From positions 1 to 27,043 of the IMG/VR virus record IMGVR_UViG_3300035156_000187: 27,043 bases of DNA; one strand, written 5' to 3'. Both the position numbers and the translations under genes were made by a program. The notes beneath the pieces were generated by a model. It was not told where the DNA came from, made no database searches, and saw only the letters and a list, made by a program, of their open reading frames with translations. Positions 21,189 to 27,043 of this stretch are shown in pieces; the first letter of the stretch is position 1; each line of letters starts with the position of its first letter. This stretch comes from a virus.

Positions 21189-21410
21189 ATGGACGTCAAA
21201 GAGCGTGAACTGAAAATCTGGAACGACCTGCTTGAGCATGAGGCTCGGCGCGAATGCGCGATCGATCATTGGGCGGGCGAGCTGGCCGGCCATGCGAAGG
21301 TATTGAACCGACTCGGCGTTATTGAGGACGAGGAGTTGCGGGAGATGCTTGAGTACGCCGACGCGGCTTACGGACACGTGTCGGCGGAACGCCAGGATGG
21401 TGGTGCCTAA
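21189..21410 (+). CDS. Small helical phage protein
   Basis: 73 aa; the ATG is 2 nt after the UmuD'-like stop with GAGGAA 8 nt upstream, so it belongs to the SOS operon. The sequence is almost entirely helical and acidic (ERELKIWNDLLEHEARRECAIDHWAGEL, then VIEDEELREMLEYADAAYGHV). No known family is recognised. A truncated second copy of its C-terminal part lies beyond the attachment site (26718-26786), so it is a recurring phage gene. Confidence 0.75.
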   Translation: MDVKERELKIWNDLLEHEARRECAIDHWAGELAGHAKVLNRLGVIEDEELREMLEYADAAYGHVSAERQDGGA

Positions 21411-21906: not shown

Positions 21907-22620
21907 ATGTCAACGTACCCATGGCAGGTCGAAGCGCTGAGATTCTCCTTTATCAACCTCCAGTCGGACCAAGCCTCGGATGGCTTTGGGTGGGTTGATC
22001 TGCTTGGGTCTCCGCCTGAATCCGTTACTGAAAAGAAAAGTATGGGCATCAAAACCGAGCAAGGTAATTGGTTGCGCGGTACTCTTTCTGTCAATCGTCA
22101 AGTTGGTCGGATAGACGTGGTCTATTCCTTTGCTCAGCCTGAGGCATTTACTGATCTCGACAGTCCGCTACCAAATGCGGGATCCATCGATGAAGTATTT
22201 TCAGCATGTGCAGAGCTTTTTAATGATGCGAAAAAACTCCGGTTCGGTAGGTTTGCATTCGGCGCGGTTTTATTAATGCCGGTGGATGAAGCTTCAAAAG
22301 GTTATGAACATCTCAAGACCTTTCTCCCATTTATAGACTTCAAGTCTGACATGAGAGACTTCTTCATGCAAATTAACCGCCCTAAGCAGTCGCCTCTTGG
22401 GGTTGAAGTTAACGAGCTAAGTAAGTGGGGCTGCGTAAACGTTAAAGCAGTCAATCTCGTGGAGCTGAATTCGATGGTGTCTGCTGAAGTTCATGCCGTA
22501 CGGCTTGAGCTGGATATAAATACTCCAGAACAAACGGCGCCGCTGAATACTGATGTGTCCGCATTGGTTCATGAGTTTGTTGAGCGAGGTAGGGCTCTTT
22601 CCGAAAGGGGCGCTGTATGA
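21907..22620 (+). CDS. Accessory operon protein A, unknown
   Basis: 237 aa, ATG after AGAGAAA. No family could be recognised with confidence. A beta-rich N-terminal half (WQVEALRFSFINLQ ... WLRGTLSVNRQVGRIDVVYSF) is followed by a helix (SIDEVFSACAELFNDAKKL), a beta segment GRFAFGAVLLMPV, and a long C-terminal part with AVRLELDINTP near residue 200 and a final helix (VSALVHEFVERGRALSERG). The general shape, beta sheet with an LELDINTP-like strand near the C-terminus, reminded me of the TIGR04255 group, but this is only an impression. No signal peptide or membrane segment. It is translationally coupled to the next gene by ATGA, and its base composition is lower in GC than the phage genes. Probably a cytoplasmic component of a defence or conversion system. 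Confidence 0.75.
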   Translation: MSTYPWQVEALRFSFINLQSDQASDGFGWVDLLGSPPESVTEKKSMGIKTEQGNWLRGTLSVNRQVGRIDVVYSFAQPEAFTDLDSPLPNAGSIDEVFSACAELFNDAKKLRFGRFAFGAVLLMPVDEASKGYEHLKTFLPFIDFKSDMRDFFMQINRPKQSPLGVEVNELSKWGCVNVKAVNLVELNSMVSAEVHAVRLELDINTPEQTAPLNTDVSALVHEFVERGRALSERGAV

Positions 22621-23294
22621 TCGCTGATAGCGTTTTTGGAATGACCCCGGGACTTTTTTACGGGAATTGGGATGATGTTAAGACTGCGCCATCTTTTACA
22701 AGTCACGCGGCTCGAAGTGAGGAACGAGTTTTTCCGTCCGAAGTAATTTTCGAAGGGTCTAGCAGTTCGCCGGTCGTATACGTTTGCTACACTGAAGGGG
22801 CGCGGGATAGTGCATACCTAAATGCGTTTTTGCAGGGCAATCAAATGGGGCTAGGCATTGGCGCTGTAATCGCGCCCGCTGCACGCCCTCGAAAAGCTTT
22901 AGGTTATAATAAGTGGTTTAAAAAAATAATTGGCCTCGACTCTGTCGATATGGCTGACTCTTCTTCTACCGCTTTATCACCAAAGGCTAGTGCAAAGCTT
23001 CATATTTATAATATGTTACAGTATGAGGCGGTTCGTTCTCGCGGTGAAGCGCTTGAGTATATGTTTGATTTTCTAGAGCAGTCTTTCGAGCATAAAGAAG
23101 TTGAGATGTTGAATCTTTTGCTTTATACCGCAGCTCGCGATCTTCGAACATCTTCTTTGGGGGTGAGCTTGCTAAGGGGGACCTTCAGGGCAAAGAAGGA
23201 TCTCACTATGTGGGCGGTTTGCAGGGACGCTATGTACTCGTCAATGCAGTCCTCGCCGGATAGCAAGAAACTTTTCCGCGGTTTGCTAGGGTAA
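22617..23294 (+). CDS. Accessory operon protein B, unknown
   Basis: 225 aa, starting in the ATGA overlap with gene A. No family recognised. The first 95 residues look alpha/beta, with PVVYVCYTEGARDSAYLNAFL and a Gly-rich turn MGLGIGAVIAPAARPR. Residues 130-225 are helical (SAKLHIYNMLQYEAVRSRG, EALEYMFDFLEQSFEHKEVEMLNLLLY, LLRGTFRAKKDLTMWAVCRDAMYSSM), ending KKLFRGLLG. No catalytic triad or nucleotide-binding motif could be identified. The tight spacing to A (overlap) and C (5-nt gap) indicates one functional unit. It could be a sensor or adaptor for the C protein. Confidence 0.75.
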   Translation: MIADSVFGMTPGLFYGNWDDVKTAPSFTSHAARSEERVFPSEVIFEGSSSSPVVYVCYTEGARDSAYLNAFLQGNQMGLGIGAVIAPAARPRKALGYNKWFKKIIGLDSVDMADSSSTALSPKASAKLHIYNMLQYEAVRSRGEALEYMFDFLEQSFEHKEVEMLNLLLYTAARDLRTSSLGVSLLRGTFRAKKDLTMWAVCRDAMYSSMQSSPDSKKLFRGLLG

Positions 23295-23299
23295 GCATT

Positions 23300-24016
23300 A
23301 TGGGGCTGCAGCTAAAGGAATATGCTGATTCTGCATTGGGTGTTACTGTCTCTGGTACCGCTGAACAGCGTCATGCTGGTTTTATATTTAAAGATGGTGC
23401 GGATGTTAGGATTCTTCATTTGGCCTGGCATTTTGCATTAAAGCGTAACTCTGTCGATGAGTATATAAATGCGCGTGGGCTGGGGCCATTTTGCGCATAT
23501 TGTTGCGAAGGGCTGCTGGATTCTCAGACGCTTGAAGTTGTTAGCTTTCTAAAGGTAATCTGGAAGCGGAATCAGCATGCGATTCCTTACGGTATTGGTG
23601 CGGACGGCATTGAAGGTTTCTTCAATCTGGATGGAACGATAGCAAGAGCTAGATCCGGAGACGGCCTCACGTGCGCAACATTCATCATGAGTGTTTTTTC
23701 ATGTTTGGGCTTGTCGCTCATCGATCCAAGCGATTGGGAGAGTCGCTCAGATGACAAGGTGTGGCACCGTTGGATACTTGATAATTTAAGCCAGCATCCC
23801 GCCTACCAGCCTCAGGTAGCGGGACATGCCGCCGCACAGGAAAGACATGTCGGACATGCGGCTCGATTCCGCCCTGAAGAGGTGGTAGGTTGCGCTGCTT
23901 ACATTGAGGACGACCCTAAAAGCTTCGATCAAGCTGTCGAAGCTGGTGAAGTAGTGCTAGCGGATATGGTCGCCAAAGGTATTTATGCTCTTCCTGGCGC
24001 ACCCACCTGCGCATGA
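23300..24016 (+). CDS. Accessory operon protein C, candidate permuted papain/NlpC-like enzyme
   Basis: 238 aa, starting 5 nt after B. It contains LHLAWHFALKR (His40 and His44) followed, about 80 residues later, by SGDGLTCATFIMSVFSCLGLSL with Cys125. A His-before-Cys order with the Cys at the start of a hydrophobic helix is what circularly permuted NlpC/P60 and LRAT-like (YiiX-type) proteins show. On this basis it could be a cysteine peptidase, amidase or acyltransferase and the effector of the operon. Residues 60-72 hold a Cys cluster (FCAYCCEG). Residues 165-200 are His/Ala-rich (GHAAAQERHVGHAARF). No membrane segment or signal peptide. The assignment is tentative and needs structure prediction. 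Confidence 0.6.
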   Translation: MGLQLKEYADSALGVTVSGTAEQRHAGFIFKDGADVRILHLAWHFALKRNSVDEYINARGLGPFCAYCCEGLLDSQTLEVVSFLKVIWKRNQHAIPYGIGADGIEGFFNLDGTIARARSGDGLTCATFIMSVFSCLGLSLIDPSDWESRSDDKVWHRWILDNLSQHPAYQPQVAGHAAAQERHVGHAARFRPEEVVGCAAYIEDDPKSFDQAVEAGEVVLADMVAKGIYALPGAPTCA

Positions 24017-24048
24017 CCATTATTGGGATTGCTCCAAATGTCCTGTAG

Positions 24049-24420
24049 CTTCTTCGGCGACTCCTCTTCCATGGCGAGATCTCCCGGTGGCTACCTCAGC
24101 TTTGCAGGGGGATTGGAATTATTTCTCCAGCCAAGAAGGCCAGGGGCGGCGGGAATGCCGGGAAAGGGGGAAAATCAGTTCCAGAACTCAAGCGACGCCC
24201 CTTGTAAAGGGCGGTCTCTAATCCTGTCGTTCGAAAAAGTATTGGAACTGATTTGTACGTCAACGGGCCGACCGTCGGCGCTTTGCATGACGGTCTTGAA
24301 AGCCGTGGGCAGTGTGTGGGGTGTCACCACTCTCCGAGTGCTGTGGCCCTGAGTGCGATGCTTCTGGACAGAGTACTAAAGTCGTATCCAGGATTCAGGA
24401 GAACGCCGGCTATGCTCTAG
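24049..24420 (+). pseudogene. Decayed coding remnant after the accessory operon
   Basis: In one frame, open stretches are separated by stops at 24046 and 24205. The first reads ISPAKKARGGGNAGKGGKS and continues to the stop; the second reads NPVVRKSIGTDLYVNGPT, then GALHDGLESRGQCVGCHHSP, SAVALSAMLLDRVLKSYPG, ending at a TAG at 24418. These have protein-like composition but no usable start codon in the second part. The Gly/Lys linker and the Cys-rich domain are reminiscent of polymorphic-toxin tips, only as an impression. It appears to be a gene relic with at least one in-frame stop. Confidence 0.4.
24172..24254. repeat. 12-bp inverted repeat enclosing a small hairpin
   Basis: AAATCAGTTCCA at 24172-24183 and TGGAACTGATTT at 24243-24254 are perfectly complementary. 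Between them CCCTT-GTA-AAGGG forms a small stem at 24199-24211. A third hairpin, GACCGTC / GACGGTC, follows at 24270-24295. They fall within the remnant, so coincidence is possible. Confidence 0.4.
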
Positions 24421-24453
24421 GCAAAAAGATCACACGCTATAAAGGAGGGAAGG

Positions 24454-24627
24454 ATGCCCCAGATAAAAGGACGCAGCCCAGCCCAACTCGCTAGAGTTCA
24501 AGCGATGTTGGACTGGCATTTGGACATGGCGGCCGAGCTAGAACGTTCCGGCAGGTTCGTCCAGGCCCGGGCCCATTTGTTAAGGGCGAACCTATTAAAG
24601 CCCGCCGCGTCCTACCCGAGCGGATGA
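24454..24627 (+). CDS. 57-aa helical protein
   Basis: 57 aa with a near-perfect ribosome site (AAAGGAGGGAAGG just before the ATG). The sequence opens MPQIKGRSPAQLARVQAML and continues DWHLDMAAELERSGRFVQAR, then AHLLRANLLKPAASYPSG: two amphipathic basic helices with no membrane segment. Codon use is typical of the high-GC host, unlike the three-gene operon before it. No family is recognised. It stands alone, so it may have its own promoter, but none was convincing. Confidence 0.65.
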   Translation: MPQIKGRSPAQLARVQAMLDWHLDMAAELERSGRFVQARAHLLRANLLKPAASYPSG

Positions 24628-24935
24628 GTGACAAAGCTCATCGCGGAGCCTCGTAGGTTCAGGATTCCGAAAACTTGGCATATCGGGATTGCAAGGCTGG
24701 CGCAGCCGCAAGAGTAGGGGAGCGGTAGTTGTCGGCAGGACGCCCAAGAAGGGAAAACGCGCACGTGAACAAAACGTGAGTCACAGCGCCTCACAGCGTG
24801 TACGCTGAGCGACTTCTTGAGATAGCGTAACCGTTTGCGGGCGGCGTAAGCTGTTGATAGTTAAGTGCTTTCCGTTGGTAAGGATGATTTAGGTTCCAGC
24901 GCCGCAAGACTCGACTCTCTTAATCCGCACCAAAC
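24628..24935. other. Gene-free stretch between the 57-aa gene and the bidirectional terminator
   Basis: About 310 bases. Short open frames on both strands (longest about 60 aa on the minus strand) lack ribosome sites and show no family signal. No tRNA, strong hairpin or repeat was recognised. Confidence 0.4.
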
Positions 24936-24969
24936 AAAAAAGCCCCGGCTCTCATGAGTCGGGGCTTTT
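24936..24969 (-). terminator. Bidirectional terminator of the minus-strand DUF2971 operon
   Basis: GCCCCG / CGGGGC stem with a short CTCATGAG inner palindrome. On the minus strand it runs into T6; on the plus strand into T4. It lies 22 bases beyond the stop of the small minus-strand gene. Confidence 0.88.
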
Positions 24970-24991
24970 GAGTTATGTACGCTGCAAAATT

Positions 24992-25162
24992 TTAATATGG
25001 CTCCCCAAAACGCAACCGTTTGGACCAATGTTTATTGAGGTTGAAAGGGTCGGGAAACAGGGTGGTTTTGTAGGTCAATTTTGCGGTTAAAGCCTTGATT
25101 ATAAAGTGATTGACGGCTTCGACCGGGGCGTCCCAGTCGGTAACATGTCTATCATTCGGCAC
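24992..25162 (-). CDS. Probable 56-aa partner of the DUF2971 gene
   Basis: 56 aa on the minus strand if the GTG at 25162 is the start; it begins 14 nt after the DUF2971 stop. The translation is protein-like: VPNDRHVTDWDAPVEAVNHF, then IIKALTAKLTYKTTLFPDPF, then NLNKHWSKRLRFGEPY. There is no good ribosome site next to the GTG; a GGGAGAGA lies about 20 bases upstream, so an unusual start or coupling is needed. Placement between the DUF2971 stop and a strong minus-strand terminator supports a real gene. No family is known. Confidence 0.5.
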   Translation of the reverse strand: MPNDRHVTDWDAPVEAVNHFIIKALTAKLTYKTTLFPDPFNLNKHWSKRLRFGEPY

Positions 25163-25176
25163 GTGCCGTATGTTTC

Positions 25177-26124
25177 TTATTTGTCTCTCCCTACTTTGTT
25201 AAACATTTCTAAATAGTCTCCAAGTATCCCCGCATGATGGAGAATGTGGAATGTATTACGATGGGCGGCTTCGCGCTTGTCATGTTCTGAGATGCTGCAC
25301 CATGAACATTTTGCGCTTTTTGATGGTTCTAGACAGTCCTCACATCTTTCTTCAGTTTGGACAATTTCATCCGGACTGAATACGTAGGTGTTATCAGCGT
25401 CGTCGACGAAGAATGGAGTAGTGGTACTTCGTCCGATTCGCTTTTCATAGAACTTGCAGCCGATTGTAGCGGCGGTTTCGCGAAGCTTGGCCTTTATTGT
25501 ACTCGAGGACTTTGCGCCTACGATGATGGCTGTTACGAGTTCTGACGGAAAATATAACAAAGATAGCTTAGGGCTTATTACCGTTTCTGCCGCTTTGGAT
25601 GTGACTAGTCTGCGCTCCTGCTCGTAGGACCAGCATTGCTGCTTCGTAAAATACGCTGCACTGCTAATTGCGTCCCGCAACCACCCGATGTACCTAAATT
25701 TAGAGATGTGGAACGCCCTATCTAATAAATCCTGCATATAATCATGAGGAGTATCTTGATAATCAATATCACCAAACGCTCCTTGCCAATTCATTTTTTC
25801 TTCAAGCCAGTTGGACAGACCTATTTCGTCGATTTCAACAACAAACCCTTGAGAGTTTGCTGCATAGTGCGCCCACATCGGCGTGCTTATAGGTGATTTA
25901 GAAAAACATGTTACGGGATGCTCAATCACCATAGATATCATTTCGTTGTAATACGCTAAAATCTCAGGGCCTTGATCATAGTCTATGGTCAAGAAAAACT
26001 CGTAAGGGTCGTTATAATCCTTGAGGTATGAAAGCTTAAAACTGCATCTGCCATCGTCTTGAAGGAAGACGCCGGCAATTTCGGGGCCAAAGTATTTGTA
26101 GACGTTGCCCGGGCTGCGTTCCAT
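25177..26124 (-). CDS. DUF2971 protein with C-terminal zinc-ribbon-like cysteines
   Basis: 315 aa on the minus strand from the ATG at 26124, chosen because GGAGAACCGC precedes it and the protein then opens MERSPGNVYKYFGPE, the normal DUF2971 start. An in-frame GTG at 26217 would add 31 atypical residues. The family blocks are all present: CSFKLSYLKDYNDPYEFF near residue 27, VTCFSKSPISTPMWAHYA near 71-88, GFVVEID, and CWSYEQERRLV near 164. After residue 260 a C-x2-C...C-x2-C pair (CEDC, CSWC) looks like a zinc ribbon. DUF2971 genes are frequent in phage and defence-island cargo; the biochemical activity is unknown to me. Lower GC than the phage genes. It forms a two-gene operon with the small gene downstream. 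Confidence 0.85.
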   Translation of the reverse strand: MERSPGNVYKYFGPEIAGVFLQDDGRCSFKLSYLKDYNDPYEFFLTIDYDQGPEILAYYNEMISMVIEHPVTCFSKSPISTPMWAHYAANSQGFVVEIDEIGLSNWLEEKMNWQGAFGDIDYQDTPHDYMQDLLDRAFHISKFRYIGWLRDAISSAAYFTKQQCWSYEQERRLVTSKAAETVISPKLSLLYFPSELVTAIIVGAKSSSTIKAKLRETAATIGCKFYEKRIGRSTTTPFFVDDADNTYVFSPDEIVQTEERCEDCLEPSKSAKCSWCSISEHDKREAAHRNTFHILHHAGILGDYLEMFNKVGRDK

Positions 26125-26436
26125 GCGGTTCTCCAGTGCGGTGGGTAAATTTTCGTTGCTGGCATCATGCCACTGAGTTGTATTTGAGTAAACGCGAAGC
26201 ATGGACACAGTCTGCACTAGGGCGGGTTCTGGAGTGGCTTTCGGTAGGCTTGCCGCGACTCCGTGAGAAAGGTCGCGCTAATTCGGCTGTGGTAGCAACA
26301 ACGCTTGGGAGTGCGCAAAACCTTTGCTGGAGGCCGCGTGTTCTCGTTTGCAAAATCACAAGAAAGACCGTATTTTGCGAGGGTGATTAGGGTGTATTTT
26401 TCTTACGTATCAAGAGGTTGAGAGCCTATCGTCCCC
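26125..26436. other. Gene-free stretch between DUF2971 and the attachment site
   Basis: About 310 bases. It contains the candidate minus-strand promoter and a GCAAAAT...ATTTTGC inverted pair at 26350-26378 whose role is unknown; near an attachment core it could be a recombinase arm site. No gene is seen. Confidence 0.4.
26386..26413 (-). promoter_or_regulatory. Candidate sigma-70 promoter for the DUF2971 operon
   Basis: On the minus strand TTGATA (26413-26408) and CCTAAT (26391-26386) are spaced 16 bases. This would give a leader of about 250 bases. Weak support. Confidence 0.3.
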
Positions 26437-26484
26437 AGCATGGGGTGCTAGGGGTCGAGTGTTCGAATCACTCCGTCCCGACCA
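26437..26484 (+). tRNA. 3' part of tRNA-Pro(GGG): prophage attachment core
   Basis: The sequence contains the anticodon loop ATGGGGT (anticodon GGG at 26442-26444) closed by AGC/GCT, the variable region, the T arm GAGTG-TTCGAAT-CACTC, the acceptor strand CGTCCCG, discriminator A and CCA. The 5' half (D arm, 5' acceptor) is missing: upstream bases do not pair or match. This is the pattern left when an integrase uses a tRNA 3' end as attachment site. The element lies to the left; the intact tRNA copy should be at the other end. Confidence 0.85.
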
Positions 26485-26492
26485 TAATTCCT

Positions 26493-26529
26493 AAAGGGAA
26501 CCAGCCACTTACAGGCTTGGTTCCCTTTT
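26493..26529 (+). terminator. tRNA-Pro terminator
   Basis: AAAGGGAACC-A-GCC pairs with GGC-TTGGTTCCCTTT with one bulged base, then continues into T. It follows the tRNA CCA end by 8 nt, as expected for the host tRNA transcript. Confidence 0.75.
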
Positions 26530-26717
26530 TCGTTTCCGGCTTGCGCAAAATCCGCGGAAAACTATCCGGCTATTTCGCTGATGTCGGACTCCGCAATGGC
26601 CTCCGACAATTAGACGAATCGACATCTGGCCGACAGCCTTGCCCTTCAATTCCCGCTGGAAGCTGCGCAAGCCCCGGCGGACAGCCCGAGCGTGCCTTGG
26701 CGCGATCTGCTTAGGCC

Positions 26718-26786
26718 GAGGAGTTGCGGGAGATGCTCGAGTACGCCGACGCGGCTTACGGGCGCTTGTCGGAAGACCTCGCGTAG
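26718..26786 (+). pseudogene. Truncated second copy of the 73-aa phage gene
   Basis: The translation EELREMLEYADAAYGRLSEDLA matches the C-terminal part of the gene at 21189-21410 (EELREMLEYADAAYGHV), and the DNA is nearly identical over about 50 bases (21330-21384 against 26718-26772). A TAG two codons upstream cuts off the N-terminal part. It lies on the host side of the attachment core, so it is a relic of another related prophage or of an earlier insertion. Confidence 0.75.
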
Positions 26787-26885
26787 CGGGATTGGTCGAA
26801 GGCTGGCGGTCGGAAAAAAGGGGAGTTCGAGATGTCGGCAGAACGCCGTGGCGGGTGGCCCCGCCGATGAGCCGGGGCTCGGCCG

Positions 26886-27032
26886 CTAAGCCTGAGTCCA
26901 CCGCACCTCTGCAATCCCGTGCCGCTCAGCGAGCGGTTTGCTGACCACCTTCACTTGCTCGTGTCGGTATTTGGGAATGGGTGCAACCCCGGAATCCACC
27001 GCCGCCCAGTGCCAGGCTTCGGCATTACTCAT
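26886..27032 (-). CDS. Small protein of unknown function (may extend past window)
   Basis: 48 aa from the ATG at 27032 on the minus strand, or the C-terminus of a longer protein beginning outside the window, since the frame is open to the edge. It reads MSNAEAWHWAAVDSGVAPIP, then KYRHEQVKVVSKPLAERHGI, then AEVRWTQA. The composition is protein-like with high-GC codon use. No family recognised. Confidence 0.5.
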   Translation of the reverse strand: MSNAEAWHWAAVDSGVAPIPKYRHEQVKVVSKPLAERHGIAEVRWTQA

Positions 27033-27043
27033 CGTCGCTGTAC

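Follow-up and report, generated by a model that had tools for sequence, protein, structure and literature searches.

We propose that the DUF2971 locus of this prophage consists of one gene, coding for a stand-alone, zinc-tailed DUF2971 protein that is an ADP-ribosyltransferase-like effector, carried as cargo and probably directed against phages; we give this composite reading about an even chance of being right. The 27,043-base stretch that was analyzed (the window) is a virus record in its own right and represents a prophage fragment. Its genes code for a major head protein, a tape measure and a tail fibre J, and also for a lipase-type moron, a DNA methyltransferase and a UmuD-like protein; no integrase gene was recognised among them. 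The features of the locus are collected in Table 1.

Table 1. Features of the window discussed in the text, numbered from its first base
Feature	Position	Strand	Basis or remark
Terminator-like hairpin	24938..24969	-	-31.6 kcal/mol, z -6.4
Chance open frame, 56 codons	24992..25162	-	GTG start; not a gene
Conserved non-coding element, 149 bp	24998..25146	-	Origin of the false 56-aa frame
DUF2971 CDS	25177..26124	-	315 aa; Pfam, PADLOC, ATG preceded by GGAGAA
Predicted ADP-ribosyltransferase-like part and four-cysteine C-terminal tail	about residues 1-257; C261, C264, C273, C276		Within the DUF2971 CDS
Attachment-side strip, ~180 bp	26311..26489		77-79% identical to L106, L031 and L092
tRNA-Pro(GGG)-like 3' end, attachment core	26439..26485	+	Comparison with relatives; one copy in the window

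The DUF2971 gene and its place in the prophage

The DUF2971 gene named by an earlier, sequence-only reading of this DNA is real. It starts at an ATG at position 26124 with GGAGAA upstream, and its product has PF11185 (DUF2971) as its sole Pfam match, at 29.9 bits (E=1.5e-6) compared to a gathering cut-off of 22 bits. PF11185 likewise matched all 18 members of our alignment of zinc-tailed proteins (A3) at E-values up to 0.1. Five PDC-S31 models of PADLOC matched with a best E of 1.2e-20, in a run that used a 346-aa form read from an upstream GTG start and displayed no curated cut-off, and PHROG 1762, a family of unknown function, matched the protein at E=2.5e-33. These HMM matches make up its likeness to PDC-S31 and PF11185, from which the window protein differs in belonging to a zinc-tailed subfamily. 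DUF2971 matches were found in 320 plasmid records, eight of them spanning at least 80% of the window protein. The low GC content remarked on earlier was confirmed, the gene having 44.5% GC compared to 58.9% in window positions 1-21000.

The same reading had put the gene right beside an attachment site and had called a strong terminator, and both were recovered. The 3' end of a tRNA-Pro(GGG)-like sequence, present once in the window, is duplicated at both prophage ends in G003, G221 and G007/L021; the GGG anticodon was read by eye, and ARAGORN gave no whole tRNA at this core. The terminator is a hairpin with a T-rich tail; a simple terminator scan of positions 24000-27043 missed this minus-strand hairpin and returned two sites, compared to 3.2 on average in shuffles. 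The strip holding the hairpin also occurs in L021, where the conserved element (described below) and the terminator strip are together 85% identical to the window over 382 columns. Since the core-side strip and the strip of element and terminator both match relatives, the DUF2971 gene sits between two shared blocks, where cargo genes of prophages are commonly located.

The interval between core and element spans 0.3-3.7 kb in five prophages with the tRNA-Pro core (the window, L106, L092, L021 and L031), the core lying at -332 relative to the element in L106, -2476 in L092, -3718 in L021 and -2936 in L031. In L031, the piece compared from the integrase end held no duplicate of the core. What lies in the interval varies: a histidine-kinase-like gene in L021 and a radical-SAM-like protein in L092 (both by eye), a UDG-superfamily protein (Pfam E=1.6e-5) with a coiled-coil protein (by eye) in L031, nothing clear by eye in L106, and DUF2971 in the window. 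The DUF2971 gene is prophage cargo (a moron) in this variable slot. Elsewhere, the DUF2971 relative in G003 lies outside the prophage, about 5 kb beyond the tRNA-Pro core, and that in L047 is the last gene of its contig, opposite the integrase, with no duplicated core found at the contig ends.

Several other observations were made in the window. Three low-GC genes lie side by side at positions 21907-24016, with no Pfam match above cut-off; the third matches PHROG 11836 (unknown function), and the trio is possibly more cargo. A 60-bp direct repeat, 92% identical, occurs at 21325-21384 and 26713-26772, and the second copy, past the attachment core, comes perhaps from another phage. By eye, a plus-strand strip at about 24881-24935, adjoining the terminator, resembles the 3' part of a tRNA-Leu(UAG); ARAGORN gave no tRNA there, and L021 has the same strip just downstream of its terminator. 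A scan for sigma-70-type promoters across positions 24000-27043 found zero sites, with a mean of 2.2 in shuffles.

The 56-codon frame and the conserved element

A frame of 56 codons opens with GTG 14 nt downstream of the DUF2971 gene, and the sequence-only reading had taken it for a partner gene. We reject it as a gene in view of a conserved stop, a length expected by chance and the lack of an evident ribosome-binding site (by eye): the DNA is conserved and the reading frame is not. When viral contigs were scanned by a tblastn-based method, 27 loci matched the frame, and in every one a stop codon follows right after the residues aligned to W-D-A. Among 37 copies of the element, 35 of them distinct and the window included, that codon is TAA or TAG in 33 of the 35 distinct copies, where the window reads GTC; one further copy, probably L084 owing to a one-base shift, reads ATA. 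The window's frame is open throughout in the window alone (1/35), and whichever of the six frames is read, at most 10 of the 35 are open. In Markov simulations of the 556-nt stretch, one or more frames of at least 56 aa arose in 85% of the sequences. Because the homologous copies hold stops and long frames are common in simulation, the frame is, judged from its sequence, open by chance within a non-coding element that is conserved.

We surveyed ORFs of at least 60 aa within about 3.2 kb of 19 DUF2971 loci, several of which were shortened by contig ends (e.g. L004 and L047), and found no recurring partner family. The families that did recur were the identical-sequence pair L005/L048, a transposase-like pair in L003/L008, and DUF2971 itself, in tandem in L006 and as a second copy in L005/L048. 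Downstream of DUF2971 in L047 is a 174-aa protein with a weak SLATT_1 match, below cut-off. A 34-mer of the element had no exact match in any of the 22 DUF2971 loci gathered by sequence. When the 26 viral stretches with the element were set against the five viral contigs with a zinc-tailed DUF2971, the two shared one contig, 2731957839_000002, at a distance of about 3 kb; a wider-family DUF2971 lies elsewhere on another element contig, 2639762638_000001. The DUF2971 gene stands alone, without a conserved partner, since no partner family recurs among neighbour ORFs of 60 aa or more, L047 differs downstream and the 34-mer is absent.

A two-gene toxin-antitoxin or defence unit made of DUF2971 and the 56-aa protein, the interpretation first offered for this locus, is therefore very improbable. 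Its appeal lies in the 14-nt spacing and common terminator, which resemble an operon, and in the 27 viral loci that match the frame, but the similarity is that of DNA, with the stops described above, and the element and zinc-tailed DUF2971 genes occur apart. The conserved stop refutes the two-part reading as far as sequence can; the part of the suggestion that survives is a plausible defence role for DUF2971.

The element itself is widespread. Its 25-mer TGGTCCAAACGGTTGCGTTTTGGGG has exact matches in 26 IMG/VR stretches. When one mismatch was allowed, the 25-mer was present in 9 of 298 Pseudomonas genomes; G003, a member of this genus that was picked for its DUF2971 relative, is among the nine. 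The 149 bp aligned across 31 sequences with no internal gaps except a one-base indel in L084; being nearly free of indels argues that the element is not idle. Searches by blastn of named phages and plasmids gave no match to it, and Rfam gave none over the element in the window, L021, L022 and L029; two sub-threshold Rfam hits lie elsewhere in the window. A structured RNA was rejected on an RNAalifold covariation term of -0.1. Four named hairpins of the element were no better than shuffles, the first of them showing one-sided changes that keep G-U pairs, insufficient for an RNA structure, and the window copy had a folding z of -1.1. Rz-like, endolysin-like and tail-fibre-like genes recur 3' of the element (by eye, from clusters), and it therefore marks the late end of the prophage. 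An integrase lies near the opposite end in G204, G106, G066, G033, G097, G009, G003 and several virus records; 4 of the 26 element records, all fragments, had no integrase match.

Two further arrangements were noted around the element. In L022, L025, L026, L033 and L034 it is followed 3' by a LexA-box-like sequence (by eye) and then by a small coiled-coil-like gene that faces the lysis genes. Contig G221:C1 holds two same-strand copies, at 2327844 and 2367830, and their 40-kb separation suggests neighbouring prophages.

In six prophages (G204, G106, G097, G009, G033 and G066) the 5' end of the element is overlapped by a core repeat of 29-49 bp, whose copies at the two prophage ends share 78-86% identity. 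The integrase-side core runs into an ArsC-family gene (protein LQLYGIKACDTMKKARTW...), which we take to be yffB, in the five of the six where it was read (all but G066). Integrase identity among the six is 89-99%, compared to about 34% between them and the integrase of the tRNA-Pro integrator G003. In the yffB group the element is, on this sequence comparison, the putative attachment core together with the arm that points away from the integrase. The motif GTTTTGGGGAAGA, with one mismatch allowed, occurs on the integrase side in five of the six yffB prophages compared to none of three tRNA-Pro prophages, a distribution that favours an arm role and that we give little weight because part of the strip looks like a copy of the host sequence that precedes yffB. 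We rejected the element as an arm of the window's own (tRNA-Pro) integrase, with the core 0.3-3.7 kb away in such prophages. The element may be left over from an earlier integration module, or it may serve a second function.

As a separate observation, the integrase side of the prophages in L116 and L112, and also in L100, L114 and L110, appears to give the interrupted yffB a new start (MPNEINHLQLYGIKACDT in L116), so these prophages appear to restore the gene.

We regard it as a possibility of some substance, though below even, that the element is not an attachment arm and instead serves all these phages at their late end as regulatory DNA or regulatory RNA. The near-perfect preservation of its length, with one indel among 31 copies, would fit such a role, as would its retention where the core lies elsewhere, for example in G003. 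Against this stand the overlap of its 5' end with the core in the six yffB prophages, covariation that does not exceed shuffles, and the silence of Rfam over the element in the four sources scanned.

Tail, fold and conserved residues of the DUF2971 protein

The C-x2-C / C-x2-C tail reported by the sequence-only reading is present, as C261-x2-C264 and C273-x2-C276, but it marks a subfamily of DUF2971 and is not peculiar to the window gene. All four cysteines are invariant in the 18 rows of alignment A3, the window counted. With the sequence of the window protein, 22 loci were gathered (17 from genomes and five viral), of which 19 were aligned; L049-L051, three of the five viral loci, were left out, and the sequence of L005 recurs under the record L048. 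Among 42 wider-family DUF2971 proteins, 41 are without any C-x2-C and one has a single C-x2-C near its N-terminus. Zinc-ribbon Pfam models matched weakly in 1-3 of the 18 zinc-tailed members. The distribution of the subfamily is sporadic: it was found in one of 199 Pseudomonas genomes (G003), and the other members come from Vibrio, Shewanella, Photobacterium, Aeromonas, Acinetobacter and alphaproteobacteria, with L047 the closest relative of the window protein (82% identical). In a Jannaschia MAG (L019, 4998-5645) the DUF2971 copy is broken by a stop, with the tail in a second frame.

An AlphaFold2 model computed from A3 had a pLDDT of 87.6 and a pTM of 0.81. Rows 1-17 of its VIA-align results are all chains that belong to the ADP-ribosyltransferase superfamily. 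They are headed by Tpt1 (7yw4, Z 7.1, rmsd 3.0, 110 aligned) and include DarT (7omw, Z 6.7, rmsd 3.7, 140 aligned), 7yk3 (Z 6.5) and 8baq (Z 5.1), followed by CteC, CARDS, LT and TreTu. The first four Foldseek matches were DarT at E 0.0048-0.022, and no PDB match reached 0.001; a structure library of viral proteins gave one match under 0.001, to an unnamed protein. We also modelled L137, a short DUF2971 protein of 223 aa, 17-22% identical to the zinc-tailed proteins, from a 43-row alignment. This model (pLDDT 91.5) again gave the ADP-ribosyltransferase superfamily in VIA-align rows 1-12, the first other row having Z 5.1, with Tpt1 at Z 7.0 (rmsd 2.5, 101 aligned) and DarT at Z 6.9-5.4 (best DarT rmsd 4.2, 137 aligned). 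Its best Foldseek E was 0.13, with Tpt1 and CteC first and Hsp90 chains mixed in. All Z-scores in both models are below 8, values that according to the tool are often seen when a model has no clear match, and the two models are not fully independent since their alignments have nine rows in common. An ADP-ribosyltransferase-like fold is nevertheless likely for DUF2971 on these models.

Sequence comparisons gave no such result: hhalign against six DarT-like sequences returned a probability of 0.15%, and the Pfam DarT family (PF14487) had no match, so an assignment to DarT by sequence was rejected. A sequence-profile search of the PDB was not meaningful: its best E, 0.11, belonged to a RING-finger chain that matched the profile at its tail end.

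The wider family was built from 59 loci, of which 44 were examined, giving 42 usable ORFs and 34 sequences in alignment A4. N38, D39, M83, W84, H86, Y87, G93, K161, W165, Y167, E168, E170, R172 and G203 are invariant in all 43 rows, and K10 is present in 41. Among the peptide patterns used to collect the viral loci of the wider family are LMWSHYAD and DWAYEEEE, so these motifs were partly selected for; the 17 genome loci, gathered with other patterns, still hold them. E170 lies at the start of a strand in the A3 model, a position that would fit the glutamate of an ADP-ribosyltransferase. K10 would stand in place of the H or R that classic ADP-ribosyltransferases have on the first strand, and with this exchange the family could be inactive or do other chemistry. 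The reference catalytic sets for these candidate residues were H-Y-E, R-S-E and R51/E160 of DarT.

Possible function of DUF2971

We infer the catalytic site, activity, substrate, defence role and regulation of the protein as follows. Residues 1-257 would form the ADP-ribosyltransferase-like domain, with NAD+ bound in a cleft lined by Y9-K10, N38-D39-P40, M83-W84-x-H86-Y87 and Y167-E168-x-E170-x-R172, and E170 as the likely catalytic glutamate. ADP-ribose would be moved onto nucleic acid, in the manner of DarT or CmdT, or onto protein, and the zinc tail would recognise the target or the trigger. The protein would be silent or restrained in the lysogen and would block a superinfecting phage. We know of no antitoxin or sensor for a stand-alone toxic transferase of this kind, which counts against our preferred explanation.

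An anti-phage role for the gene is plausible because of the PDC-S31 match, the ADP-ribosyltransferase-like fold and some defence-type neighbours. The neighbours, all of them in relatives, are SIR2_2 in L004, SIR2_2 with TIR in L009 and, in L005, Mrr_cat together with another DUF2971 copy; one Agrobacterium plasmid carries a Lit-family protein, and another plasmid a HEPN gene together with a DEAD/DEAH helicase. These genes were picked by eye among the 19 loci plus five stretches of plasmid, and no background rate was set against them; in the remaining stretches, including most of the 19 neighbourhoods, no defence gene was recognised by eye. PADLOC files PDC-S31 as a 'phage defence candidate' only (PMC11514479). 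In the literature searched, which has most subscription papers and all preprints outside its coverage, 'DUF2971' occurred only in a genome re-annotation, and neither 'PDC-S31' nor 'DUF2971' combined with 'defense' or 'ADP-ribosyltransferase' gave a record.

Three known enzymes offer comparisons. DarT, the toxin of DarTG, ADP-ribosylates phage DNA and acts against phages (PMC9967889). It is, with Tpt1, the nearest fold in both models, whereas no sequence similarity to it was found for the window protein, which has a zinc tail, a lysine on strand 1 and no recurring antitoxin neighbour among ORFs of 60 aa or more. CmdT of CmdTAC ADP-ribosylates mRNA in phage defence (PMC11618068), and DUF2971 may likewise be a transferase that acts on nucleic acid against phages; CmdT is partnered by an antitoxin and a chaperone, whereas the DUF2971 gene is alone. 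The tRNA 2'-phosphotransferase Tpt1/KptA ranks first by Z-score for each model (7.1 and 7.0), but the aligned chain is only 120 residues long, and its H-H-h motif (PMC9967889) was not seen in DUF2971.

Two other accounts of the protein have to be weighed. DUF2971 might not be an enzyme and might instead be a regulatory protein of phage or host, a nucleic-acid-binding or an anti-defence protein, with the zinc tail as its active part. The invariant tail cysteines, the weak zinc-ribbon matches and the low fold scores lean this way; the residues invariant across the wider family fall in the ADP-ribosyltransferase-like part, however, and the wider family has no tail, so we consider this account unlikely. 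Alternatively, the protein could be a lysogenic-conversion ADP-ribosyltransferase that modifies a host protein or small molecule and has no part in phage defence. Cargo in the same slot that by eye is not obviously defensive (the histidine-kinase-like gene of L021 and the radical-SAM-like protein of L092) is in keeping with this, whereas the PDC-S31 assignment and the defence-type neighbours are not, and we judge it rather improbable.

Our preferred reading, a single-gene effector, can be extended to the whole of DUF2971, which would then be an unrecognised, widespread family of single-gene ADP-ribosyltransferases of phages, plasmids and defence islands with the signature K-(N-D-P)-(M-W-x-H-Y)-(E-x-E-x-R), its zinc-tailed subfamily recognising nucleic acid; we put this extension at slightly less than an even chance. 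The analysis is most useful for the hypothesis that DUF2971 is an ADP-ribosyltransferase and for having recognised the conserved attachment-side element, which highlights that a conserved attachment-side phage sequence can mimic a conserved small gene in six-frame translation searches. If DUF2971 proteins are ADP-ribosyltransferases, a plasmid and phage family of unknown function would become testable through NAD+, the conserved glutamate and phage challenge.
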